NCBI GenBank assembly: GCA_022843585.1
Contig: JALHNJ010000004.1
Location: 1-64,000, forward strand
DNA from: Chitinophagaceae bacterium
GTDB lineage: Bacteria; Bacteroidota; Bacteroidia; Chitinophagales; Chitinophagaceae
Length of the DNA stretch: 64,000 nt
Reading direction: 5' to 3'
Each line of letters begins with the position of its first letter. Position 1 is the stretch's first letter. Of this stretch, positions 37,830-58,415 are shown one piece after another. The notes beneath the pieces were generated by a model. It ran no database searches. It was not told where the DNA came from and saw nothing but the letters and a program-made list of their open reading frames with translations. The translations under genes and the position numbers were made by a program.

Positions 37830-40085
37830 TCAGAATGCCCGTTTGTCATCTTCTTCGCCCATAGCAATTTTATATGCTTTAATAAATAATGCACCTAAGT
37901 TTTTGTATGGAGGTATATAATCTTCAAATTCTTTTGCTACTACCATCTTGTCCAATTCTTTCCAGAAAGGAATCCAGTCAATATTATTACCAGTTCTTGC
38001 CTTATCGGTTAAGAGTTGAAAGAAAGGACGGTTCACTTCTGTGGCACCAATTTGTTTGGATGCGATAATATGTGCATCAGGTGCCTTTTCCAGCACATCA
38101 TGAATTAAATGATAACCGCCACAAGAACCCAGGAACACAATTTTTGACGAAGGAAACATTTGCGCAATAGTAGCATCTGCATAGTAGCTATGTCCTCTGT
38201 GAATGGTAATGGATGGATATTCTTTTTTCGCTTCCATGTATTCACACAAAGCTTTTTGTGCTTTTTCGTCTTCTCCACCTTCTTCCGGCAAAGCTCTGTT
38301 CGCATAAATAGTAACTGGCTTCCCTTTAGCTGAATTAATAGTAACCCATTGCTTATTGCTGTTATCTATTCTCCAATTCGCATTACTGAACATATTTACA
38401 AAGCCTCTGAAAATTCCTTGCCCATCTTTATCTCCATAAAAGAAAACCTGCATGATTACTCTGCCGCTATCATTTAATAATGATTTGTTAGGCACTTCAT
38501 AAACCGGCGGAATACCAAGCTCCTTTGTCAGGTCTATTTTGTTTGCTGTGTCAGCAGATAAAAAAAGATTGTTGAGAATTTTATAAATAGCTATTCCTTT
38601 TTTATTATTCTGATTAAGATTGCGTTGATAACATTCCTGCACATTGCGCAACATTTCATTGGCAATAGGTTTCAATGATTCTGCGATACTTGCATAAGAG
38701 TCTGCCACGTCTACTCCATCTTCCAAACCATCCGTTTTCTCCAGGTTTTTTACAAATGCTTTCATCAGGGTATTGGCCGGGTCATCTTCATTGGGGTTGG
38801 TTGATTTAGGAAATGAGCCGAGGAAGTTGCCCAATGTATTGTAACCCGCCGCCATCTTGATCAGTTTGCGGTATTTATCAAAGCTCACTAATGTCAATAA
38901 TGAGTCACCACGGTTGCCAATTTTTTTCATCATTAGTGGATACACACCTTTGGTAAAACTAGAGGTATATATAGACCCGTCTGAAGATACAATCAGATAA
39001 TACAATTCTTCTGCACTTAATGGCTGAATACTTCTGAACCGAACCTCGGCGCCTTCATTATGTAATGCATTTATCGTTGTTATAAAAACAGATTTAGCTT
39101 TATCTTCTAATTTTTTACCAAGCGATTTGTACTCAAACGCAGTATCCTTATTCAATAACCGTTGATAATAATCAATCTGAGTTTTTACCAGCAATTTATA
39201 ATATAGAACAGAATCATCTTTTACATCATCAATATCACGGATCGTTATTTTACCTTTTACAATATTATCCAGAAAAGGAAAATAAAACTGGCCACTTTTA
39301 CTTCTGGCCATAGTGGCAATTGTTTTAACAAATACATCGTCATTAATATTTCTTATCGTAACACCCAACTTACTATTGGAGGCTGCATAGTCATATAATT
39401 GTTTAGGATATTTTCTTGCTACCACCCGTACAAGGCTGTCAGCAAATGGCATAGCCGGATTTTGATACAATGTCAGGAAAGTTTTTGCCGGATTTAAGAC
39501 GCAAAACTTCAGCACCAAATTGTTTTTTGATGCCAGATATCCGGCGTTTTTATCAAAAATACTAGCGCCTAGAACATTGTTTCCCGCATCATATGATAAC
39601 TGACTGATTATACTTTCAATGGATTCATTTTTCCTGTCTTTAGCAACAGATGCTTCAAATGCATTGACGATAACCGGAAGATTTGCAGGGTTTACCTTCT
39701 TATCTGATTTTATTTTCCAGTTTTGTTTAAAATACTTTAGAAGATTTTCAAGACCTGTGAGATAATTAACCTTTAAACGATGGTCTAATACTTTATCCGT
39801 TTCAATCAGGTATTGAATCACATCCACCTTTCTTACCAAAGCCTGTGTAATAAGAAAATTGACATCCTCATCTTTTGAAGGAGTAAAAAGTTTATCGGCT
39901 TTTCCATCGGCTGCCAGAATGGATTTTTGTTCAGCATCTATTGCATCGTGTTTGAGGGCACGGGAAAAAGCAGGCTTAAAAGGCACCGGTATATTTACGG
40001 TATCTGCAATATTAACTCCCTGGGCTTGCACAGCTTCCGCAAAAAAAATCATCAATAAAAGGAAAAGGTATTTGTTCATTGTCAT
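37830..40085 (-). CDS. Secreted hypothetical protein, 751 aa, with caspase-like C-terminal region
   Basis: Signal peptide; C-terminal SITIHRGHSYY ... SKIVFLGSCGGYH. Confidence 0.55.
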   Translation of the reverse strand: MTMNKYLFLLLMIFFAEAVQAQGVNIADTVNIPVPFKPAFSRALKHDAIDAEQKSILAADGKADKLFTPSKDEDVNFLITQALVRKVDVIQYLIETDKVLDHRLKVNYLTGLENLLKYFKQNWKIKSDKKVNPANLPVIVNAFEASVAKDRKNESIESIISQLSYDAGNNVLGASIFDKNAGYLASKNNLVLKFCVLNPAKTFLTLYQNPAMPFADSLVRVVARKYPKQLYDYAASNSKLGVTIRNINDDVFVKTIATMARSKSGQFYFPFLDNIVKGKITIRDIDDVKDDSVLYYKLLVKTQIDYYQRLLNKDTAFEYKSLGKKLEDKAKSVFITTINALHNEGAEVRFRSIQPLSAEELYYLIVSSDGSIYTSSFTKGVYPLMMKKIGNRGDSLLTLVSFDKYRKLIKMAAGYNTLGNFLGSFPKSTNPNEDDPANTLMKAFVKNLEKTDGLEDGVDVADSYASIAESLKPIANEMLRNVQECYQRNLNQNNKKGIAIYKILNNLFLSADTANKIDLTKELGIPPVYEVPNKSLLNDSGRVIMQVFFYGDKDGQGIFRGFVNMFSNANWRIDNSNKQWVTINSAKGKPVTIYANRALPEEGGEDEKAQKALCEYMEAKKEYPSITIHRGHSYYADATIAQMFPSSKIVFLGSCGGYHLIHDVLEKAPDAHIIASKQIGATEVNRPFFQLLTDKARTGNNIDWIPFWKELDKMVVAKEFEDYIPPYKNLGALFIKAYKIAMGEEDDKRAF

Positions 40086-40305: not shown

Positions 40306-40983
40306 ATGGACAATAAGCCCAGAAAGGTGCTAATTGCTGACGACGAGCCGGATATTTTAGAAATACTGAAATACAATCTTTCTAACGAAGGGTACGAAGT
40401 AATTACTGCTAAAGATGGCGATGAGGCATTGGAAAAAGCCCGTCGTACCCAACCCGACCTTATCATATTGGATGTAATGATGCCCAAAAAAACTGGTGTG
40501 GAAGTTTGTCAGCTTTTACGGGCACAAGCGATTTTTAAAGAAACATTAATCGTTTTTTTAACTGCTGTTAATGATGAAGGCACGCAAATTAAAGGACTTG
40601 AAACCGGCGCAGATGACTACATAAGCAAACCCATCAGCCCAAGAGTTTTTTTAAGCAGGGTAAATGCACTTTTTCGCCGGTTAAATAAAGCGGATTCAAG
40701 GATTCTCACCATCGAACATCTAACTATAGATCCGGAACGTTTCGTTATAATGGTGGGAGATAAAGAAATCATTCTCGCCAAAAAAGAATTTGAATTACTT
40801 TATCTGCTTGCAGTAAAGCCAGGAAGGGTATTTCTTCGTAATGAAATACTGAACCAGGTTTGGGGCAATGATGTAATTGTAGGCGACAGAACCATCGATG
40901 TTCATATTCGTAAGATCCGGCAAAAACTTGGTATAGATTGTATTACTACAGTAAAGGGAGTTGGATATAAATTTGAGTTATAG
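40306..40983 (+). CDS. OmpR/PhoB-family response regulator
   Basis: ADDEPDILEILKYNL...LIILDVMMPKKTGVEVC; C-terminal winged helix RTIDVHIRKIRQKLG. Confidence 0.93.
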   Translation: MDNKPRKVLIADDEPDILEILKYNLSNEGYEVITAKDGDEALEKARRTQPDLIILDVMMPKKTGVEVCQLLRAQAIFKETLIVFLTAVNDEGTQIKGLETGADDYISKPISPRVFLSRVNALFRRLNKADSRILTIEHLTIDPERFVIMVGDKEIILAKKEFELLYLLAVKPGRVFLRNEILNQVWGNDVIVGDRTIDVHIRKIRQKLGIDCITTVKGVGYKFEL

Positions 40984-41127
40984 ATTTACAAGGTGCAAAG
41001 ACAAGGTACAAGCACCTTATAAAATTGAGGCTCTTAATTGCTAGCTTAATAATCCTTAAACTTTATAGTTAAATGTGGCCGATTAAGCCTTGTATTTCTT
41101 GTTACTTGTCCCTTGTACCTTCGCACT

Positions 41128-42177
41128 ATGTTTTTCACTAAAAATATTTCTCCCCGCCAACTCTCTGCATTTACAGCCTTAGTACTGGCAATACCTATCA
41201 GCTTATTAATTGGATATATTGAAAATAGCTGGAAGATTGGCGCCATCTGTTTTGCCATCATTTTTGCCGGAAGTTACCTGCTTATATCTTTTATACTGGA
41301 GCGGTTTATTTACCGAAAAATAAAACTGATCTATAAATTCATCCATCAAACCAAGGCTACAAAAAAAGAAGAAACCTATTATAAATATGTGTTGCCACAA
41401 AAAGATATTGCCCAGGTAACTGATGAGGTAGAAGCATGGGCAGCCGAGCATGAAGAAGAGGTGCAGATGTTACGTAGTATTGAGCAATTCCGAAAAGAAT
41501 TTTTACAAAATTTATCTCATGAATTTAAAACTCCGGTCTTTGCCATACAAGGATATATTGACACTTTGCTTGGAGGTGCTTTGGCTAACCCGGAAGTAAA
41601 TAAAAAATTTTTAGAGAAAACTGCTAAAAATGTTGAACGTCTTACGCATCTGCTAAACGACCTTGATGAAATTTCCAGCCTTGAAAGAGGGGAACTCGTT
41701 TTATATAAGGAAAATTTTGTGATACAGGATTTGGTAAGGGAAGTGTATGACAGCTTATCTGCAAAAGCAGAAGCTGCAAATATTTATTGCTCCATTAAAA
41801 AAGGTTGCGAGTCTCCTTTAACGGTTTATGCCGATAAATCAAAAATCAGGCAGGTATTGACTAATCTTATTGAGAACTCCATAAAGTATGGTAAGTATGA
41901 TGGCTCTATTGCCGCCAGTATGTATAAAACAGATGGGAAACATATTTTAATAGAAATAAGCGACGATGGTATAGGAATTAACGAAAAACATGTACCCAGA
42001 ATTTTTGAACGTTTTTACCGAACTGAAGAAGGCAGAAGTATTGATGTAACTGGAAGCGGATTAGGTTTGGCCATTTGCAAACATATTGTTGAAGCACATA
42101 ACCAAACAATACATGTACGCAGCAGAGAAAACATCGGCACCACTATTGGATTTACCCTGGATGTAAAGAAAGATTAA
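41128..42177 (+). CDS. Sensor histidine kinase, PhoR-like
   Basis: FLQNLSHEFKTPVFAIQGYIDTL H-box; N, G1, G2 boxes; ATG at 41128 preferred over the TTG at 41113. Confidence 0.92.
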   Translation: MFFTKNISPRQLSAFTALVLAIPISLLIGYIENSWKIGAICFAIIFAGSYLLISFILERFIYRKIKLIYKFIHQTKATKKEETYYKYVLPQKDIAQVTDEVEAWAAEHEEEVQMLRSIEQFRKEFLQNLSHEFKTPVFAIQGYIDTLLGGALANPEVNKKFLEKTAKNVERLTHLLNDLDEISSLERGELVLYKENFVIQDLVREVYDSLSAKAEAANIYCSIKKGCESPLTVYADKSKIRQVLTNLIENSIKYGKYDGSIAASMYKTDGKHILIEISDDGIGINEKHVPRIFERFYRTEEGRSIDVTGSGLGLAICKHIVEAHNQTIHVRSRENIGTTIGFTLDVKKD

Positions 42178-42303: not shown

Positions 42304-44544
42304 ATGACTTTCCTCCTTTTTATCGTTATTGTATTATTTATTCTTGCCATCCTGGACTTAGTAGTTGGAGTAAGCAATGATGCTGTAAATTTTTTAAACT
42401 CTGCTATTGGTAGCCGGGTAGCCCGATACCGTACCATTATATTAGTGGCTGCGGCAGGTATTATTCTTGGCTCTATATTCTCCAGTGGAATTATGGAAAT
42501 AGCCCGAAAAGGTATTTTCCACCCAGAGTTTTTTACACTTACAAACCTGATGTGGGTTTTCCTGGCAGTAATGATAACAGATATTATACTGCTGGACGTT
42601 TTTAATTCACTTGGATTACCCACTTCTACAACGGTATCTATCATTTTTGAATTACTTGGAGCAGCATTGATAACAGGGATTCTTATCTCTGTTGAAAAAG
42701 ATGAACCTGTTTCAGCAATGATGAAATACATTAATGCTGAAAGTGTATTAACAATTATTACCGGTATTTTCTTATCCATCTTTATCGCATTTACTTCGGG
42801 TATAATCATTCAATATTTATGCAGGCTCCTTTTTACATTCAATTATGAAGACAAGCTTAAAAAATACGGAGCTTTTTTTGCCGGACTTGGTATCACTTCC
42901 ATCATATATTTCCTTTTAATCAAAGGATTAAAAGGTACCACTTTGCTTGATCCTGCAATGAGAGACTGGATAACGAATAACACCTTACTCATTTTAGGTA
43001 TAATTTTTATAATAGGTTTCCTGGTTTGCTTTTTATTACAAAGAATTGCCTCCGTTAATCCGTTGAAAATTGTGGTGCTAATGGGTACCTTTTCATTAGC
43101 GATGGCATTTGCCGGCAATGACTTGGTAAATTTTATAGGGGTGCCCATTACTGGTTACCTGGCTTTTGAAAATTGGAGGCAAAGTAGTGTTCCGGCCGAC
43201 TAGCATTACCAGGGGTATCTTGCAAGTAATGATGTAATTGTTCCGAATTATATGCTGCTCATAGCTGGTATCATAATGGCACTTACACTCTGGCTTAGTG
43301 CAAAAGCAAAGAAAGTAACAGAGACCGAAGTAAACCTTGGGAGCCAGCATGAAGGAGAAGAAAGATTTAAACCCAATAACGTATCGAGGAGCATAGTAAA
43401 AACTTCTATGCGGTTTAGTAATTTATTTGCCCTAATCGTACCAAGATCTGTTTCGCAAAAATATAACCTGAGCTTCGAAAAAAATAAAATGAAGCAGGCT
43501 ACCGTAATTCATGATAAGCCTGCTTTTGACCTTGTAAGAGCAGCATCCAACCTCGTAATTGCCAGCATACTTATAGCTTGGGCTACATCTATGAAACTTC
43601 CTTTATCCACCACTTTTGTTTCCTTTATGGTAGCTATGGGTACATCGCTGGCAGACAGGGCATGGGGAAGAGAAACTGCTGTTTACCGTGTGGCTGGAGT
43701 GCTAAGTGTTATCGGGGGATGGTTTATTACAGCCATCATCGCCTTTGTCGTATCCGGAATTTTTGCTTTCATACTTTATAAAGCAGAAGCTACCGGTGCT
43801 ATCATTTTGTTGTTGATTGCCGCTATTTATATTATTTCATCGCAGCTAAGATTTGCCAGGAAGGAAAAGAAACAAAAAGAAGGAAATAGCAAGCTAATAA
43901 TATTGCAGGGAACAGATGCTGATATTCTGCAGCAAAACAAAAAAATGGTAACTGATACGTTAAGTGAGATTAACCTGCACTATGGCAATATCCTTGAAGG
44001 GTTAAAGAATAGCGAAACTAGTTCCCTGGAAAAGACATATAAAAAACTGAAGGAGCTGGAAGACTATGGATTTAAACTCCGGGCACAAAGTATCCGATAT
44101 ATAAAAAGCCTCAATACGGAGGAATCCAAACCAGCGGCCATACTTCTTTATAGCACCGACCTACTGCAGGACATCACATATTCCTCTCTTACTCTAAGTG
44201 AAGAATGCCTGCACTATGTAAAAAATCTTCATCGCAATCCCAATCGAGAATTTGTGGTAATTACGGATGAATTAAAAATCAAGATGAATAATTTTATTAC
44301 AACCGTCATCATGATTATTACAGAAAATAAAACTGCTGATATTGAAACCGTTAAAACGGCCCGTGATGATGTTCGTAACTTCCTGAACCTGCAACTTGAC
44401 ACACAGGTTGAACAAATTCAGCAAGCTAAACCGGGAGTAAAACAAGCTATACTTCAAACAAGTATTCTCTTACAAAGCCGCGATATTCTGGCTGTAACAC
44501 TTCGCATACTGAAAATGTATAAAAAGTATTTTCAACAAAATTAA
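42304..44544 (+). pseudogene. Pit-family inorganic phosphate transporter interrupted by one in-frame TAG at 43201-43203 (ORFs 42304-43203 and 43252-44544, same frame)
   Basis: GVSNDAVNFLNSAIGS and AFAGNDLVNFIGVPI Pit signatures in part 1; part 2 continues in frame with DxxRAASNLVIASILIAWATSMKLPLSTTFVSFMVAMGTSLADRAWGRE. Confidence 0.85.
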
Positions 44545-44546
44545 AA

Positions 44547-45689
44547 TTAGCGTAGGGATATCGGAGGAGCAGCATTTTCAATTGAAAATTTTTCTCCAAG
44601 AATACCGGCAATAGTCTGCGCTACCTGAGATTGGTAGAACTGCTGCTCTTCTTTTATTTCACCAACGGAATTAATACCCGGACCCATCAACGCCAGCCAG
44701 GTTTGTGATGACCCTTTAATAAACTGGCCATGAGAAGACCATTTTGAGGCTCTGCTGCCACGGCCATGATCTGTAGTAATAATAAATGTAGTATTATTCT
44801 TATAGCCGGGTGTTGTTTGTACCCAATTCCATAACTCGCCAATCATTTTATCTACCTGTGCTGCTTGTTGCAAATAAAGATCGTATCTGCCCTGATGTGC
44901 AAACTCATCCGTTTCTCCCAAACTTATGTAGGCAAGCCTTGGCTTGTGTTGACGAATATACTCTTTTGCAGTCAAAAAAGTCAGTTGATCATGCCGGGTA
45001 GCAGTTTTATCATAAACGGCTTCGGATTGTACTGCATTAATAATTTGTTGTTGCAAAGAATTGCTTTCCAGGTTTTCGTACCCGCTATTTATCGGCAGAT
45101 TATTTCGTTCTGTATTTAAAATATAGGGAAATACATCCCAAGAAGAAAATATAGCTACCTGGTTTTTAAAGGCCTGCTTACTTTCAAGATATTCGAATAC
45201 ATTAATATGGGGGTTCTTTATTTTCCTATTGGATGAGATTGATATATCTGCAATACCCGTAAACATTTCATTATACCCGGGATATGACAAGGAATAAAGA
45301 TTCGCAACATTTACCTTATTATCATATTGCCTGTTGCCAAGTAGTTGCCCCTTTTTGGCAATTACATTCCAAAAGAAGGGTAATAGTTTTTTTCTCCTTT
45401 CTTCAAATGAAGAATCCCAATATAGCAACTTAGTAGTAGAAGTATCTGGAGTAAACTTTTCTGAATTAATGATTGCCGGATCAGCACCATTAAAAACTTC
45501 CTGCCATCTAAAACCATCTATAGTAATAACTATAAGATTGCTTGCCACAGGAAGTTTGCTTTTAGGGAAATAATTTTTTGATTCCTGCTTATACATCGGT
45601 TGTAGCATTATCATCAATAATGCAGTAGCCCAAATGCTTTTCATGTGTAACGGTTTTACAAAATAAGCAAGCAGATATGAACGTACCAT
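44547..45689 (-). CDS. Alkaline phosphatase-superfamily protein (phosphodiesterase/sulfatase-like)
   Basis: LIVITIDGFRWQEVFNGAD, YPGYNEMFTG, TFIITTDHGRG, ISLGETDEFAHQGRYD. Confidence 0.88.
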   Translation of the reverse strand: MVRSYLLAYFVKPLHMKSIWATALLMIMLQPMYKQESKNYFPKSKLPVASNLIVITIDGFRWQEVFNGADPAIINSEKFTPDTSTTKLLYWDSSFEERRKKLLPFFWNVIAKKGQLLGNRQYDNKVNVANLYSLSYPGYNEMFTGIADISISSNRKIKNPHINVFEYLESKQAFKNQVAIFSSWDVFPYILNTERNNLPINSGYENLESNSLQQQIINAVQSEAVYDKTATRHDQLTFLTAKEYIRQHKPRLAYISLGETDEFAHQGRYDLYLQQAAQVDKMIGELWNWVQTTPGYKNNTTFIITTDHGRGSRASKWSSHGQFIKGSSQTWLALMGPGINSVGEIKEEQQFYQSQVAQTIAGILGEKFSIENAAPPISLR

Positions 45690-45821
45690 TATCCAGAAAT
45701 TATGAAAGCATTAATACTATTGATCCTTTTTACAATTGCATAAGGTTTATGTAATAATAATTTAATCAACGTTTCATCACCAGGACATAGCAGATAACAA
45801 AATTTGTAAAACTCCAGCCCA

Positions 45822-46670
45822 ATGGAAAAAAGACCCGTAGATATTGCTGTAATTTCTGATTTACATCTTGGCACTTATGGCTGCAAAGCCAATGAAATTG
45901 TTGCATACCTGAAAAGTATATCGCCACAACTATTAGTACTAAATGGCGATATTATTGATGCGTGGCAATTCAGTAAACACTATTTCCCTGCTTCTCACAT
46001 GGCTGTTATTAAAGAAATATTTCATTTACTCACTAATGGCACCCGGGTAATATATATAACAGGCAATCATGATGAATTCTTACGTCGCTATGCTGATTTG
46101 GAATTGGGGAACTTGCAACTAACCGATAAAATGCTGATAGAAATACATGGCAAAACAACCTGGATATTTCATGGCGATGTATTTGACAATACAACAAAAG
46201 GAGGTGCAAAGTTCTGGGCCCGGTTAGGCAGTAATGGTTATGCGGTATTGCTGGGCTTTAATAGAATGGTAAACCGATGTTCTAAATTTTTTGGCCGTCA
46301 GCCTGTATCACTTTCCCGGAGATTGATGAAAAGAATTGACAAATCAATTATTCGAACGGATGAATTTGAAACGATGGTTGCCGATTTAGCTATTCGAAAA
46401 AAATATGACTATGTTATTTGTGGGCATATACATCATCCCAAAAAAAGAACGATAGAAACTAGTGAAGGATCTGTTACTTACTTAAATACAGGGGATTGGC
46501 TGGAACATTCTACCGCCCTAGAATATTATAATAATGACTGGCATATTTATACGCATACTGAAACTGCTAAAGCTACCGCCCCCTTAAAAAAACAACCCAT
46601 GCAGGCCGAAGTAATGACCAATGAAATTGCATATTCTCTATACACTCTACAAAACGAGTTTAAGTTATGA
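45822..46670 (+). CDS. Metallophosphoesterase, UDP-2,3-diacylglucosamine diphosphatase-like
   Basis: AVISDLHLGTYG, LNGDIIDAW, YITGNHDEF, ICGHIHHP. Confidence 0.88.
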   Translation: MEKRPVDIAVISDLHLGTYGCKANEIVAYLKSISPQLLVLNGDIIDAWQFSKHYFPASHMAVIKEIFHLLTNGTRVIYITGNHDEFLRRYADLELGNLQLTDKMLIEIHGKTTWIFHGDVFDNTTKGGAKFWARLGSNGYAVLLGFNRMVNRCSKFFGRQPVSLSRRLMKRIDKSIIRTDEFETMVADLAIRKKYDYVICGHIHHPKKRTIETSEGSVTYLNTGDWLEHSTALEYYNNDWHIYTHTETAKATAPLKKQPMQAEVMTNEIAYSLYTLQNEFKL

Positions 46671-47677
46671 AAATATTCTATGCGGTACAGGCTACCGGCA
46701 ACGGCCATATCAGCAGAGCTATGGAATTGCTTCCTTATTTACAGCAGTATGGCTCAGTAGATATTTTTCTAAGCGGCGACAATAGTCACCTTGCTCTTGA
46801 TGCTCCCATAAAATATCGTAGTAAAGGAATTAGCTTATTTTATAACTGTAATGGCGGCCTGGATTATTGGCACATGATAAAAGGGCTACATCCTTTGCGG
46901 ATTCGGGATGAAATAAGGGATTTGCCAGTTGAGAAATATGACGTGGTACTAAATGATTTTGACTATATAACTTCCGCAGCCTGTGCTCGAAAAAAAATCC
47001 CTTCTATTCATTTCGGCCACCAGGCAAGCTTTCTATCTCCGCTAACACCAAGGCCAGCCAAAAAACAAGTAACAGGCGAATGGTTACTGAAACATTATAT
47101 AAAAGCTACACATCATATTGGCTTACATTTTAAATCGTATGACGATTTTATCTTTCCTGCTATTGTAAAAAAAGAAATACTGGAAGCAGACCCTGGTGAT
47201 AATAACCATATCACTGTTTATTTACCATCTTACTGTGAACCACAGTTGCAGGAAGCTTTTTTTGCTTTACCTGATTTTCAGTTTCATATTTTCTCCAAAG
47301 AAACAAAGTCAATAAGAGCTGTAAACAATATAATTTTTCTCCCGGTTGATAAATTACTTTTTAATCAAAGCCTCATTAATTGTACCGGTATTATTACAGG
47401 AGGTGGTTTTGAAACACCTGCCGAAGCCTTACATCTGGGTAAAAAAATAATGACTATACCTATTCGTGGACAGTACGAACAGCAATGCAATGCGGCTGCA
47501 ATGGCTTCGTTGGGAGTTTACCATCTTACTAAAATTGATGAAACGTTTGCCCCTGTTTTCTACAAATGGATAGAGGCGCCTTCTCCAACAGCTGTAGATT
47601 ATGCCAACGTTATTCCCCCTTGCCTGGAACAAATTTTCTTATTGGCGGAGCGATCCTTACAGCAGAAAGCCGCTTAA
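46667..47677 (+). CDS. Glycosyltransferase-family protein (GT28/MJ1255-like)
   Basis: MKIFYAVQATGNGHISRAMEL; IITGGGFETPAEALHLGKKIMTIPIRGQYEQQCNA; 4-nt ATGA overlap with the preceding gene. Confidence 0.82.
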   Translation: MKIFYAVQATGNGHISRAMELLPYLQQYGSVDIFLSGDNSHLALDAPIKYRSKGISLFYNCNGGLDYWHMIKGLHPLRIRDEIRDLPVEKYDVVLNDFDYITSAACARKKIPSIHFGHQASFLSPLTPRPAKKQVTGEWLLKHYIKATHHIGLHFKSYDDFIFPAIVKKEILEADPGDNNHITVYLPSYCEPQLQEAFFALPDFQFHIFSKETKSIRAVNNIIFLPVDKLLFNQSLINCTGIITGGGFETPAEALHLGKKIMTIPIRGQYEQQCNAAAMASLGVYHLTKIDETFAPVFYKWIEAPSPTAVDYANVIPPCLEQIFLLAERSLQQKAA

Positions 47678-47691
47678 CGAATATTCAAAAA

Positions 47692-47730
47692 GGCAAAAAA
47701 AACCACCCCGGCCTGTCTGCTTCGGGGTGG
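47692..47730 (-). terminator. Hairpin with minus-strand T-tract and no minus-strand gene upstream
   Basis: Minus strand CCACCCCG-AAGCAGACAGGC-CGGGGTGGTTTTTTTTG. Confidence 0.55.
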
Positions 47731-47964
47731 CAACTGCTGAGAAAAACTGCATCTTTTTTTTGCTTAACATGAGTGATGCAATCCTGGACGATGGGTAAAG
47801 AACTGATGCAAAGATGTTGTTGGTTTATTATCCTGCTGTTACATCAAGATTAAGTGAAGGTTATTAATCAGTAGGTTATATGCTCAATAAGCATTTATTC
47901 TTAGACCTGAAAAACTTAATATTACTTTATTGTTAAGTTTTGTAGCTTTAAGCAGCTCGCCTCC

Positions 47965-49699: not shown

Positions 49700-51052
49700 T
49701 TAATAAGCAGCATTCTGCGGATCCCAATTGCACCAACCACTTGTCCAGTTAGTAGCTCCAAAAGCACCACGATAAGTAGTACTCGAAAAGAAAGCATTCA
49801 TGCCAGCAAAACTTGAACCAGCTAGTGCAGGAGAACCGGCAGCAGGTAAAAAGTTTGGTGATGTTGAATAAAAAGGACTGGTTAACATTATTGCAGCAGA
49901 TGTTGCATACGTATTACATCCTTCAGCTTCAGCCTTAGTTTGTATTTGTGCATTAGTTGCTAATGCTGCATTAGCTGTTTTATAAGGGAGTGTGGTGGCA
50001 TGTACCATGTTGTTCTTAAACTCTGAAACACCATTGGTATAATAATCATTAAGGGTGTTATCTGATTCCAATGAAAAACCAGCATCCGGGTGTCCCATTA
50101 AAATTGAGTTGCGAAGAATAAACTGTGTTGATCTTCTCCATCTGTTAGAAAAATTGTGGTTTGCTGCTGTACCGGAAGCATCATTTGGACCAACAAATGT
50201 AAAGTTGCTTAATTGTGGTTTTGTACGTGGAGATACTGTTGTACCAGCAGCATCATTATCACACTCAATAGCGTTACCAGCGTCACCAGCATCTACAAAA
50301 TCTGGTTTACGACAAGATACCGCAAATTGTATCTTACCAGTATACCCAAAATCAAAATCAAAATCATCATCGGCCGTAGCAAAAGCTACCAGGTTTTTTG
50401 CATTCACTGTACCACCAAAAAATTCATACGCATCATCATTACCAAATGATACTTGTATATTTTCCAAAATAGTACCAGAACCAACACCACCACAAGTCAA
50501 TCCATTAATTTCAGAACCAGGTTCTGCAGCTATACCTGCATATTCAATACGAACAAAGCGAAGGATACCGCTTTCATCTAACGGATCTGTGCCACCATAT
50601 TGACGGCCAACACCACCTTCAATTGTTGGTGCCGGATCAAGCGGACGATTTGTTGGTGCTTTACCTAATAAAATAATGCCACCCCAATCACCCGGAGCTC
50701 TTGAACCAACAGGCTTACCACTTGTAAACACAATTGGGCTTGCAGCTGTACCCGATGCTACGATTTTAGCTCCTCTTTCAATAATCAAAGCTCCCTTTTC
50801 TGTTATATCACTTTGGATTACAGAACCTGCTTCAAATGTAACAGTAGCACCATCAGTAACATAAACATAACCTTTTAATATCCATTTACCTTTAGCATAA
50901 AATTTACTGGAAGAGATTACGCCACTAATAATATTACTGGTAGGGTCAGGGGGTGCTATAACAGCACCACCTTCATCAAAATTCACTTTTACACAAGAAG
51001 TGAAGCTGAAGGTTGTAGCGAGTATCAGCGTTCCCAAAAAAAACTTTTTCAT
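49700..51052 (-). CDS. Right-handed beta-helix-like surface lipoprotein
   Basis: Lipobox TFSFTSCVK; GYVYVTDGATVTFEAGSVIQSD...ALIIERGAKIVASGTAASPIVFTSG repeats. Confidence 0.7.
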   Translation of the reverse strand: MKKFFLGTLILATTFSFTSCVKVNFDEGGAVIAPPDPTSNIISGVISSSKFYAKGKWILKGYVYVTDGATVTFEAGSVIQSDITEKGALIIERGAKIVASGTAASPIVFTSGKPVGSRAPGDWGGIILLGKAPTNRPLDPAPTIEGGVGRQYGGTDPLDESGILRFVRIEYAGIAAEPGSEINGLTCGGVGSGTILENIQVSFGNDDAYEFFGGTVNAKNLVAFATADDDFDFDFGYTGKIQFAVSCRKPDFVDAGDAGNAIECDNDAAGTTVSPRTKPQLSNFTFVGPNDASGTAANHNFSNRWRRSTQFILRNSILMGHPDAGFSLESDNTLNDYYTNGVSEFKNNMVHATTLPYKTANAALATNAQIQTKAEAEGCNTYATSAAIMLTSPFYSTSPNFLPAAGSPALAGSSFAGMNAFFSSTTYRGAFGATNWTSGWCNWDPQNAAY

Positions 51053-51103: not shown

Positions 51104-53902
51104 TTATTTTTTACCGATGTTGAAATCGTAAGTAAATCCAATAGTGATCGTAGAGCCTGGTGTAAATGAATTGAATAACCTGTCGCTACCTTTACTGAAT
51201 GCTTTTTTACTATCCACATTCTCATAGAAGTAATAAGGATTGTTCAAAATATCGGCCCAGGTAAGTTTTACTTCACCCCTGCTTTTCATTACTTTTTTCG
51301 CTAATTGAAAATCGACCTGGTCACGGGGTCTCTCATAGATGTCCGGAAAATCGAGGTTACCAACTAATGAAAGTCGCTGACCGATTCTGTTATATAATAA
51401 CGAACCGCTCCATTCACCTTGCTTGCTGTTGTATTGCAATCCAACGTTGGCCAGGTAGGGTGATTGACCTTGTAATGGACGGTTAACAGAAGTTGCAACA
51501 CCGCCTGCTGTAGTGCCAGATAAAGTAACTTTTGAATAGCTGTAAGTAAGATTGGCAAACACACTAAAATTATCCAGTGATTTAGCAACGAAGTCTAAAT
51601 TTTTTCTTACTTCAAACTCCGCTCCAACAGTATAGGCGTTATCTACATTGCTATAGCCATAATTTCTTCTGTCCAATACACTCGATGGATCAAGACGAAG
51701 TTCAATAGGGTCATCAAAGTATTTGTAAAAACCACCGATAGTAATTGCTTCTCCGCCTTTAGGATAAAACTCATAGCGAACATCACCATTTAAAATAGAA
51801 GTCCTTTTCAAATTCAAGTTTCCGTTTACACCATAATTAGCTTCATAGTCATAAAATGAAAATGGTGCAATTTCTCTGAACTCTGGTCTTGCAACAGTGC
51901 GGCTACCAGATACACGAATGCTATTTTTTAGGTTAGGAGATAAGGTAAAGTTGAAGGATGGCAACAGATCCCATTTTTCTGTATTTACCACTACTCTTTT
52001 AGAAGTAACATCTTTTGTTGTGAGGAATTGTTGAAAGTTCTCAACCCGTAAACCCCACACTAATCTTATTTTTTCGCCAAACTTGCTATCGAACATTCCA
52101 TACATTCCATTAAGTATGGATACACCGAAGTATTTATCCTGGTTGTTTGTAAAATCATTTAATACAAATCCATCATTAGCAATATTAGCTGCCGCAAAAA
52201 TCTGGTTGAAAGGAAGCTCTGCTTTATCACCATCGAACTGTGTTGGAGATGCTGGCTGGTACTGGAATATACGGCTACGGAAATCACGGATACGGATCAA
52301 TGTAGATCCTCCGGTTTTAAAAATCTGTTTGTTATTCTTTATAGTGAACGGAATAGTAAGGCTTCCGTTTGCACCATAGCTAAAATCTTGCAGGTTACTA
52401 TAAAAGCGACGGGTATCATCATCATTATACTCAAATGGACTAGTTGATCCTTTTGAGCGGAAATAAGCTGATGTACGTAAATCTGGTTGTGATTTTCCGT
52501 TATACGCAAAGTTCCCGTTCCATTTTAATTTGATACCACTGGTTGTAAGCTGATGATCACCTTCTAGCTGGCCACTATACAATGAACGTTGATTTAATAC
52601 AGAGGAGCGAAAATTAATTTCCTGTATGCGGTCATCATTAACTCCTGTTCTGATATAATAATTATCTTCAAAAAGCTGGTTAAATAAGTTCTTAAAAGAA
52701 ATTTTATGTCTTCCTTTTACGTAAGAAATATTGGCTATTGCCCCGGTATTTACACTATACTTATTTTGATTATCATTAAGTACTACTATAGCATCTCCAT
52801 CCTGTTCATGCAGCCTTCTTTCCACATTGTATTGCAGCATGCTGTTGCGGTATTGCACGGAAAGAATTGTCCCCAGTACGCCACCATTTTTAAACTTTGT
52901 ACTCTTACCCCAGGTAAGGCTATAGGTTTGTGTAGGAAGTGCTTTGTTGTTTACTTCACTATAAACATCGTTGTTGAGTAATTGGCTCCAGGCAATTTTT
53001 TGTTGCGTGGTTCCACTGCGATATTCTTGTTGTGTTTTCGGAAAATCTGCAGGAAGTTTTCTTGTTTTATCATCAAACCCCAGCCAATCCATTCCGTTTC
53101 TTTCATTACTGGTAAAATCGTTAAACACAGATTGTGTATTAAAGCCAAGAGCAACACTTACAGTTAGTAGATCTCTTGTAGGTACATCTTTGGTATTGAT
53201 TTGTACGAGACCCCCTGCAAACTCACCTGGTAATTCTGGGGTAGCTGTTTTATTAATAATAATATTATCAATAAGTGAAGAAGGAATTACATCAAAAGAA
53301 AATGCTTTTTTATCAGGCTCCGTACTTGGCAACTGTGCATTATTAATAACAGCAGAATTGTAACGATCGCTCAATCCACGAACTACCACAAATTTTCCAT
53401 CCTGGATACTGGCACCACTAACTCTTTTTAAGACTTCACCAGTATTTCTATCTGGCGTACGACGAATAAAATCTGCAGCCAATCCGCTTGATAAAGCTGT
53501 ATTACTTCTTTGAAAAGTAAGTAAAGCAGCAGTGTTCTCCTGTTTCCTTGAAGTTGTTTTAATGACAACGCCTTCAAGGTTTGACTTATCTTCTAAGACA
53601 ATCTCCAGGTAATTTTCCTGGTTCGCAGTCACATCAACATCTGAAATTGATTTAGTTTGATAACCGGTGTTGGAAACAGTAAGTGTGTATTTTTTTCCCG
53701 CCTCCAGCGTAATGTAAAATTTACCTTCAATGTCTGCTAATACCTGCTTGCCAGCACCATCAATGACAATGGTAGCTCCCTGCAATGCTTCGTTCCGGGT
53801 ATTTATTACCTTACCGGAAAGCTTAATTGTTTGTGCCTGTGTTATTGCAAAAAGGCCAATAGAAAGAAGTAAAGTAAAGACGAATCGCAGCCTGAAGTAC
53901 AT
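51104..53902 (-). CDS. TonB-dependent receptor (CarboxypepD_reg-like + plug + barrel)
   Basis: IKLSGKVINTRNEALQGATIVIDG; FIRRTPDRNTGEVLKRVSGASIQDGKFVVVRGLSDRYNSAVINNAQLPSTEPDKK. Confidence 0.93.
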   Translation of the reverse strand: MYFRLRFVFTLLLSIGLFAITQAQTIKLSGKVINTRNEALQGATIVIDGAGKQVLADIEGKFYITLEAGKKYTLTVSNTGYQTKSISDVDVTANQENYLEIVLEDKSNLEGVVIKTTSRKQENTAALLTFQRSNTALSSGLAADFIRRTPDRNTGEVLKRVSGASIQDGKFVVVRGLSDRYNSAVINNAQLPSTEPDKKAFSFDVIPSSLIDNIIINKTATPELPGEFAGGLVQINTKDVPTRDLLTVSVALGFNTQSVFNDFTSNERNGMDWLGFDDKTRKLPADFPKTQQEYRSGTTQQKIAWSQLLNNDVYSEVNNKALPTQTYSLTWGKSTKFKNGGVLGTILSVQYRNSMLQYNVERRLHEQDGDAIVVLNDNQNKYSVNTGAIANISYVKGRHKISFKNLFNQLFEDNYYIRTGVNDDRIQEINFRSSVLNQRSLYSGQLEGDHQLTTSGIKLKWNGNFAYNGKSQPDLRTSAYFRSKGSTSPFEYNDDDTRRFYSNLQDFSYGANGSLTIPFTIKNNKQIFKTGGSTLIRIRDFRSRIFQYQPASPTQFDGDKAELPFNQIFAAANIANDGFVLNDFTNNQDKYFGVSILNGMYGMFDSKFGEKIRLVWGLRVENFQQFLTTKDVTSKRVVVNTEKWDLLPSFNFTLSPNLKNSIRVSGSRTVARPEFREIAPFSFYDYEANYGVNGNLNLKRTSILNGDVRYEFYPKGGEAITIGGFYKYFDDPIELRLDPSSVLDRRNYGYSNVDNAYTVGAEFEVRKNLDFVAKSLDNFSVFANLTYSYSKVTLSGTTAGGVATSVNRPLQGQSPYLANVGLQYNSKQGEWSGSLLYNRIGQRLSLVGNLDFPDIYERPRDQVDFQLAKKVMKSRGEVKLTWADILNNPYYFYENVDSKKAFSKGSDRLFNSFTPGSTITIGFTYDFNIGKK

Positions 53903-53935
53903 ACCTGTTTATTTCCGGCAAAGGTGTGCCGGAGA

Positions 53936-54001
53936 GGTTACCGCCATGTTACCCCCAGGTTAAGCAATTATAACCTCAATGTTACCGGAATGTTAAGCAA
54001 C
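53936..54001 (-). promoter_or_regulatory. Six 11-bp-phased direct repeats (Pho-box-like array)
   Basis: + strand: GGTTACCGCCA TGTTACCCCCA GGTTAAGCAAT TATAACCTCAA TGTTACCGGAA TGTTAAGCAAC. Confidence 0.65.
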
Positions 54002-54057: not shown

Positions 54058-54073
54058 ATCGTAATATTGCGAT
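54058..54073. promoter_or_regulatory. Putative ArsR operator 1
   Basis: ATCGTAATATTGCGAT, 7/8 dyad, 4 nt before the arsR ATG. Confidence 0.65.
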
Positions 54074-54077
54074 TGAT

Positions 54078-57034: not shown

Positions 57035-58243
57035 CTAGAAAGTAACTATACCCGTAAACCGCCATTGTATGGCTTCTTGTGCCGGGCCTTTAAAATAGCC
57101 AGCATCTGTTTGCAGCTTCAGATTATGCTTGAAGAAATAATGAGAATAAGCTATCATATACTCATTAACCCTTGAAGTGTAGTTAGCAATTTTTTTATCG
57201 GGTGAAGTAAAGCCGTATCGAACAGCAAATTCATCTTTTTTAGTAAATAAATATCCGCTCTGTAAGAGCAAGCCTGTCCCACTGTACACAAAATTTGCTT
57301 TAGCTGGGTTATTAGGATCTATGCTGATACCATTCCTCGAATTTCTTATATACATCTCACCGGTAAAGGACCAGCCTTTCTTTTTCATCACTATATCTGC
57401 ACCATAATAATGTATGTCTGCTAATTGATTATTAAATAAATATTCTCCTAGCTGGCCTGCCACCCGGCTGGTTCTATTATTAAAGTTGTAACTAATCCCT
57501 AGCGATAATTTGAATTTGTCTTCAAAAAAAATATCCGACTCAACATAATCCCCACTATTCTTAAACTCTCCAAACGGTAATAACTCCGAACGAAATGAAT
57601 AACTCAAGCCATTTGTTTTATCAGAATTAATTCTCCCTTCACCTGAAGTCAGCGCAAAGGTGTTGCTTAATATTGCTTTCTTTTTGAAGTAAATGGTGTT
57701 AGTTACCCAAAAGCCTTTGTCCCGGTCCAGAGTAAAAAGTCCATTGGTATTAGAACGGTCTGCAAACTGCAGATTTCCGGAAGATGTTTGCCGCTGCCGG
57801 TTACCGGGTAGTTTTGTTTGTCCGAATCCCAATCGCCAGCTTTTATTGGGAGAGTAATACAACATAGCATCTCTTAAAAACAGGTTGTTTTGCACAGCAG
57901 AATTATCTGGCGAAATATCTCGTTGAGAAAAAGAAAGCTGAATCCGATAGGTAAATTTCTGGCTAATGGCGTTACCTGCAAAATTGAGACGGAGGCGCCG
58001 AATATAGAAATCAACAGTACTATTCTTCGTTTTTAAGTCGTACCGGGATTCTGCCATGCTTTGTATTCGGCCCCCTATGCCCAAAGAAAAAGTACTATCC
58101 CGGGATGAAAAGGTAATAGGCTTGCCAAAATGTGCATCCATAAAGCCATTATCGGGGTTATACTGACCCGTACTAATAAGGGAGAAAAGAAGGAAAAAAC
58201 CAGTTAAATATGTTGTTACCACTATTCTGTTAGGCCAAAACAT
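57035..58243 (-). CDS. OprO/OprP-like phosphate-selective porin family protein
   Basis: DSTFSLGIGGRIQSMAESRYD...FYIRRLRLNFAGNAISQKFTYRIQLSFS; beta-barrel with aromatic C-terminus. Confidence 0.82.
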   Translation of the reverse strand: MFWPNRIVVTTYLTGFFLLFSLISTGQYNPDNGFMDAHFGKPITFSSRDSTFSLGIGGRIQSMAESRYDLKTKNSTVDFYIRRLRLNFAGNAISQKFTYRIQLSFSQRDISPDNSAVQNNLFLRDAMLYYSPNKSWRLGFGQTKLPGNRQRQTSSGNLQFADRSNTNGLFTLDRDKGFWVTNTIYFKKKAILSNTFALTSGEGRINSDKTNGLSYSFRSELLPFGEFKNSGDYVESDIFFEDKFKLSLGISYNFNNRTSRVAGQLGEYLFNNQLADIHYYGADIVMKKKGWSFTGEMYIRNSRNGISIDPNNPAKANFVYSGTGLLLQSGYLFTKKDEFAVRYGFTSPDKKIANYTSRVNEYMIAYSHYFFKHNLKLQTDAGYFKGPAQEAIQWRFTGIVTF

Positions 58244-58415
58244 GACTTGTGTTTAAAATTGCTGCAATATAAAGTCTTTGTTATTGAATCATTACCCTAA
58301 TTTTATTTCTATATTAACAAATCATTAATTCTCCCTACCCTTAACACCCATCATTAATTCTACCCGGTATTTTCGCAAATCATTCGGCCTCAGCCGATAT
58401 TAAAAACTACGAACT

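Follow-up and report, generated by a model that had tools for sequence, protein, structure and literature searches.

The stretch of DNA analysed here (the window, 64 kb) carries a phosphate cluster in which a TonB-dependent receptor gene and a lipoprotein gene form an operon read from the minus strand. Directly ahead of this operon lies an array of six direct repeats. The features of the cluster, including three further arrays and a candidate small RNA, are collected in Table 1. By its position and kind, the lipoprotein resembles F. johnsoniae FII (IPR011050), a likeness that suggests a beta-helix type. The true start of the phosphodiesterase is probably M16, at about 45644, and the glycosyltransferase is a probable lipid remodelling partner. 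A PiT-type phosphate transporter gene (PHO4 domain; 42304-44544, plus strand) has its frame split by a stop codon at 43201-43203, beyond which the reading frame continues; this could mean that the gene is disrupted, that the sequence contains an error or that the gene really has two parts.

Table 1 Features of the phosphate cluster discussed in the text
Feature	Coordinates	Strand	Basis or remark
OmpR-family response regulator, best matches PhoB	40306-40983	+	NCBIfam models
PhoR/PnpS-like histidine kinase	41113-42177	+	Model matches
Type I phosphodiesterase/alkaline-phosphatase superfamily protein, behind third array	44547-45689	-	Domain match
Third, weaker array; TTTG at 13 nt	45673-45716	-	Matrix; score 14.6 versus shuffle maximum 4.2
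PlcP-like metallophosphoesterase	45822-46670	+	Orthologues in two relatives carry array
Glycosyltransferase (Glyco_trans_1_3), converging on small RNA	46667-47677	+	Model match
Candidate small RNA; start a few nt past TTTG, end at terminator	47695-47812	-	11 genera; no Rfam family
Second array (four phased units), with TTTG (47812-47809) 13 nt past its last core	47823-47866	-	Matrix
Lipoprotein, second gene of TonB operon	49700-51052	-	Same neighbour in 29/30 loci
TonB-dependent receptor (domains CarboxypepD_reg and Plug), first gene behind the six-unit array	51104-53902	-	Domain matches, homologues
-7 promoter element CACCTTTG (consensus TANNTTTG)	53919-53926	-	TTTG exactly 13 nt past last unit's core
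Six-unit, 11-bp-phased operator array of TonB-receptor operon (probable Pho box, three tandem pairs)	53936-54001	-	Sequence, matrix, conservation
Phosphate-selective porin O/P, behind fourth array	57035-58243	-	Porin_O_P match
Fourth array, with five to six phased units of looser fit; canonical TTTG absent at 13 nt	58268-58328	-	Matrix

The two best NCBIfam models for the response regulator (TIGR02154 and NF053854) are both PhoB models, and the protein scores below their curated equivalog cut-offs (225.9 versus 296.2 and 218.3 versus 270). We conclude that it probably works like PhoB, though it is no certified member of that family.

Structure of the array and its promoter

The functional reading of the array is the minus strand, on which the units run GCTTAACATTC, CGGTAACATTG, AGGTTATAATT, GCTTAACCTGG, GGGTAACATGG and CGGTAACCTCT, followed by CCGGCACACCTTTG, with kTAAC[A/T]TT as the common unit. 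The six 11-mers listed in the original prediction recur with exactly the same letters and positions, and the six-unit, 11-bp-phased array that it had observed is real. Its description of a (T/G)TAAC(A/C)-N5 repeat on the minus strand holds for the strand and, measured against GTTAM, for 28 of the 30 core positions, and gives way at unit three, counted from the distal end (GGTTATAATT), which deviates from TAAC. The relatives' third unit deviates in the same manner (gTCACAATT, gTTACAATT), and we therefore regard the deviation as conserved rather than as decay. Since six-unit arrays share a common third-unit deviation, TCACAATT, they are likely to be composed of a four-unit core plus an upstream pair.

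Nothing comparable was found elsewhere in the 64-kb window: with six-unit arrays of period 11 and of periods 8-10 and 12-15 considered, no other one matches as many as 23 of the 30 core positions. Scored with a matrix built from the relatives' units only, the window's own units being excluded, the array attains 37.9, whereas the highest score in four Markov-shuffled versions of the window is 4.2.

The -7 match CACCTTTG (53926-53919) had been placed correctly, 9 bp from the array, and the ATG of the receptor follows 16 nt past its TTTG. A -7 element and a weak -33 element have been described for Bacteroidota (PMC6847099); at this promoter, a -33 TTTG is absent from its usual place.

Conservation and gene context

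We examined the upstream DNA of 30 Chitinophagaceae homologues of the TonB receptor, which, apart from the window's own gene, are 40-71% identical to it. A phased array of four to six units is present in 30 of 30, and the last core lies 13 nt from TTTG in every one of them (28 by script; two, L024 and L028, by eye), bearing out the conservation in relatives that had been proposed as a check. In the closest relatives, array, spacer and -7 box are kept nearly base by base, whereas the flanks are not. Among named relatives, those nearest to the window's Chitinophagaceae genome are Chitinophagaceae bacterium IBVUCB2 (receptor 96% identical), Terrimonas and Flavihumibacter. The lipoprotein gene comes next after the receptor in 29 of the 30 loci and a divergent arsR neighbour is found in three; given an array at all of them, we conclude that the array travels with the receptor operon.

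Across the 30 loci the unit consensus is [CG][GT]TAA[CT]ATT. Information content, calculated from 160 units, is 0.55-1.89 bits at seven consecutive positions, 0.43-0.49 bits at the two positions before them and 0.09-0.20 bits at the outer two. Seven informative positions per unit agree with the published definition of the PHO box as a pair of 11-nt repeats in which seven bases are well conserved (PMC4415409).

Searching the genome of the window for three strict GTTAM units yielded no second good site, and the control scored higher. With the strict triple unique in the genome, we replaced it by DTAAYR, learnt from relatives, and the regulon is visible only with this looser consensus. Requiring three DTAAYR units at 11 bp and TTTG at a distance of 13 nt, with zero mismatches, we obtained 34 sites in 61 family genomes as against 1 for the reversed control. 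The first gene is homologous to a protein of the window's phosphate cluster at 22 of the 30 sites examined, mostly a TonB receptor. The same 22 also take in a PhoB orthologue (69% identical to the 40306-40983 protein), two PlcP-like phosphoesterases (56%) and, at two sites, a lipoprotein (58% and 36%). First genes at other sites include one for a Porin_O_P protein and one whose product has a weak, phytase-like match. For pst operons we turned to other families of the class: of 24 loci, 9 outscore all 144 shuffles and 6 carry TTTG at the exact position. The enrichment at phosphate genes suggested as a further check is thus seen for phoB, PlcP, Porin_O_P, TonB, lipoprotein and pst genes alike, and the prediction has passed each of the computational tests named for its refutation.

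The relatives' motif revealed three further arrays within the window, before the phosphodiesterase gene, the Porin_O_P gene and the small RNA; the window's own PlcP-like gene has no array that scores. Upstream of the relatives' phoB genes there are conserved phased pairs, facing either phoB or the divergent gene. The window's phoB has no forward array and only the conserved one facing the divergent gene. This sequence, TTTACACAGACTTAATRATAARTTAATA (40245-40190, minus strand), is conserved in relatives between phoB and the divergent gene at 37830-40085, which encodes an undescribed 751-aa protein and is the gene at which the phased units point.

In the window's own genome, allowing two mismatches, three units plus TTTG occur six times versus 10 in the control, with no overall enrichment; three of the six are inside the Pho cluster, and the rest of the genome holds no clear excess of such sites. 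A four-unit search of the whole genome placed at least 9 of its 16 matches, overlapping registers of the same arrays included, within the 64-kb window. The genome lacks pstC. A choice-of-anchor I gene (L038) may be a further target in it, as may a DUF2490 gene (L040); among the other candidates looked at, some are inside genes and some stand before no gene. The array upstream of the choice-of-anchor I protein gene is a loose one of four units (C1:110815-110853, minus strand; L038 1454-1540).

The operator reading and its alternatives

The original prediction had read the array as a Pho-box-type operator, and this is supported, more strongly than the prediction itself could do, by the 30 TonB loci, the 34 sites against 1, the pst operons of other families, the three further arrays and the published induction by Pi depletion of a comparable TonB transporter and lipoprotein in F. 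johnsoniae. We hold it very likely that 53936-54001 is a Bacteroidota-type Pho box, through which a PhoB-like regulator activates the genes for the TonB receptor and the lipoprotein under phosphate starvation. On this model, the PhoR-like kinase would phosphorylate the PhoB-like regulator (40306-40983) when phosphate is scarce, and the phosphorylated protein would occupy the six 11-bp direct repeats in head-to-tail orientation, its tandem pairs lined up along one face of the helix. The last core ends 13 nt ahead of the -7 TTTG, in the place usually taken by contacts to a -33 element, and from there bound PhoB would recruit the Bacteroidota primary sigma factor. The receptor and lipoprotein genes would then be turned on for uptake of phosphate or organophosphate, and the other cluster genes, together with the small RNA at 47812-47695, would fall under the same arrangement. 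We infer that the protein binding the array is the one encoded at 40306-40983, that it activates rather than represses and that low phosphate is the inducing condition. Points that weigh against the reading are the regulator's scores below the PhoB cut-offs, the lack of a clear excess of sites in the genome beyond the cluster, the missing forward array at the window's phoB and the non-canonical spacing at the porin array.

It is improbable that a different OmpR-family response regulator uses the array as its operator and that the link to phosphate arises from gene clustering. Phased repeats are a common target within the OmpR family, the genome encodes about two dozen related response regulators (24 matches), and the 40306 protein is under the PhoB model cut-offs. 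Against this, motif and 13-nt spacing alike recur ahead of phoB, porin, PlcP and TonB genes, which occupy separate places in relatives, as well as ahead of pst operons in other families, and the regulator found beside the TonB-receptor operon in many genomes is the PhoB orthologue.

We see very little chance that the array serves the divergent arsR gene (54078 onwards) and arsenic resistance, whether alone or jointly with the TonB operon. The two genes do share the intergenic region that holds the array, and arsenate and phosphate uptake overlap, but arsR adjoins the TonB gene at only 3 of the 30 loci while the array is at all of them, every array faces the TonB gene, and arsR has an operator-like palindrome of its own, ATCGTAATATTGCGAT, just before its start, which is present at a paralogue too. 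This palindrome lies at 54058-54075 (plus strand), and the near-identical TATCGTAATATTGCGATA precedes the arsR paralogue in the same genome (L002, about 1530-1545); judged by its sequence, ATCGTAATATTGCGAT is likely to be the ArsR operator.

Repression of the operon by the array-bound regulator is similarly hard to credit: binding right beside the -7 box could also block RNA polymerase, but promoters activated by PhoB have just this layout, a 13-nt spacing to the -7 element and no -33 element, and starvation induces similar genes rather than shutting them off. The short units and A/T-rich core might point to a chance or low-complexity feature without function, an explanation made negligible by the matrix score, far above the shuffle maximum, and refuted by the conservation of units and spacing over 30 diverged loci.

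The Pho-box reading relates the array to known systems. The operator would be a new form of the known PHO box: it consists of in-phase 11-nt units with about seven conserved and four weak positions each, it keeps a fixed helical position by the core promoter in place of the upstream element, and it is enriched at phosphate genes above chance. Its likeness to the E. coli PhoB box (pstS, phoA) extends to tandem 11-nt direct repeats, about seven conserved bases, replacement of the upstream core-promoter element and association with phosphate genes. It differs in its core (kTAAC[A/T]TT here, CTGTCAT in E. coli), in that four to six units are usual, and in being anchored 13 nt from the Bacteroidota -7 TTTG, whereas the E. 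coli -10 element is TATAAT. PhoP boxes of B. subtilis are TT[A/T]ACA repeats with 11-bp phasing and several units per promoter; the core TTAACA is very similar to ours, as are phasing and unit number, whereas the regulator is that of a Firmicute, the promoter is of the sigma-A type and the units often extend over a longer upstream stretch.

Much of the consumption of organic phosphorus in soil and water is due to Bacteroidota, whose Pho genes have previously been listed by proteomics. The literature searched yielded no published Bacteroidota Pho operator consensus, which does not prove that none exists; regulons have therefore not been predictable from genomes. A consensus of phased kTAAC[A/T]TT units, 13 nt from TTTG, makes such prediction possible. 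From the layout of array and promoter it can further be seen where an OmpR-type activator sits with respect to the -7 promoter peculiar to Bacteroidota, and the motif has already exposed an unannotated conserved small RNA, a probable member of the regulon.

Within the phylum, B. fragilis PhoB binds the pst promoter directly in EMSA, and that paper, as far as searched, defines no box, giving neither a consensus nor the phase or spacing of repeats; its genes are pst, whereas here they are Pit, TonB and porin (PMC3547664). The F. johnsoniae cluster Fjoh_0541-0549 comprises PhoB, PhoR, a porin, a TonB transporter, a beta-helix lipoprotein and a glycosyltransferase, several of them strongly induced by Pi depletion; the TonB transporter and the beta-helix-type lipoprotein of this phoBR cluster rise by 8.0 and 9.9 log2 units (PMC8115612). 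The main text of that study differs from the present analysis in presenting the PHO regulon without a promoter motif or a small RNA (PMC8115612).

A candidate small RNA behind the second array

No protein gene stands behind the second array (47866-47823), which faces the 3' end of a convergent gene. Instead, the ~110 nt downstream end in CCACCCCG-loop-CGGGGTGG-T8, a strong terminator, and the segment 47812-47695 is probably a new PhoB-controlled small RNA. Homologues were collected by a DNA search followed by a covariance model that contained no array sequence. Of 299 family genomes, 23 contain homologues, 25 copies in all from 11 genera; five additional relatives have copies as well. A phased four-unit array precedes each of the 25, with a gap to TTTG of 13 nt in 22 and 12 nt in 3 (five that were off by one register in the script were counted by eye).

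Members of the family are 100-130 nt long and have a conserved 5' CAGTTCTT, a single-stranded TTTCTCATGCAGTT block and a covarying terminator. The TTTCTCATGCAGTT block, located ahead of the terminator, is almost invariant, reading CTCAGCAGTT in the window's genus. Both sides of the terminator stem have changed with pairing kept in 7 of 9 pairs, and in many members a central hairpin forms, its sequence differing from one to the next. The transcript has no Rfam match above the gathering score in the window, the best trace being a chance-level match on the opposite strand (E 0.79). A search of 247 genomes across the class, with strict filters that may miss weak matches, turned up the small RNA nowhere but in the window's own genome.

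Other interpretations of the segment were rejected. A 37-aa ORF runs through the terminator, and the conserved block lacks the ATG in the window's genus; the small RNA has no conserved reading frame. A leader or riboswitch for a downstream gene does not fit, as the next gene is convergent. Six matches (L066-L069, L071, L080) have only the 5' end in common with the family and are SAM-riboswitch-like leaders, which we did not count. These leaders begin with the same TTTGCATCAGTTCTTTA as the small RNA, a similarity of the initially transcribed sequence.

We favour the view, with reasonable confidence, that the Pho box drives a previously undescribed small-RNA family of Chitinophagaceae, a PhoB-dependent RNA of 100-130 nt that would arise only while PhoB is active and would act in trans on mRNAs of the envelope or of phosphate economy. 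To our knowledge, Hfq is largely absent from the Bacteroidota phylum. In Sinorhizobium meliloti, small RNA candidates have been predicted behind PhoB sites, and the same paper saw no evident PhoB site ahead of the sRNAs that it found induced by Pi starvation; the candidates are unrelated to the present family in sequence, and the phylum is a different one (PMC2573895). The copies described here lie, nearly all of them, beside phoR, a glycosyltransferase gene, a 47965-type gene or a lipoprotein gene.
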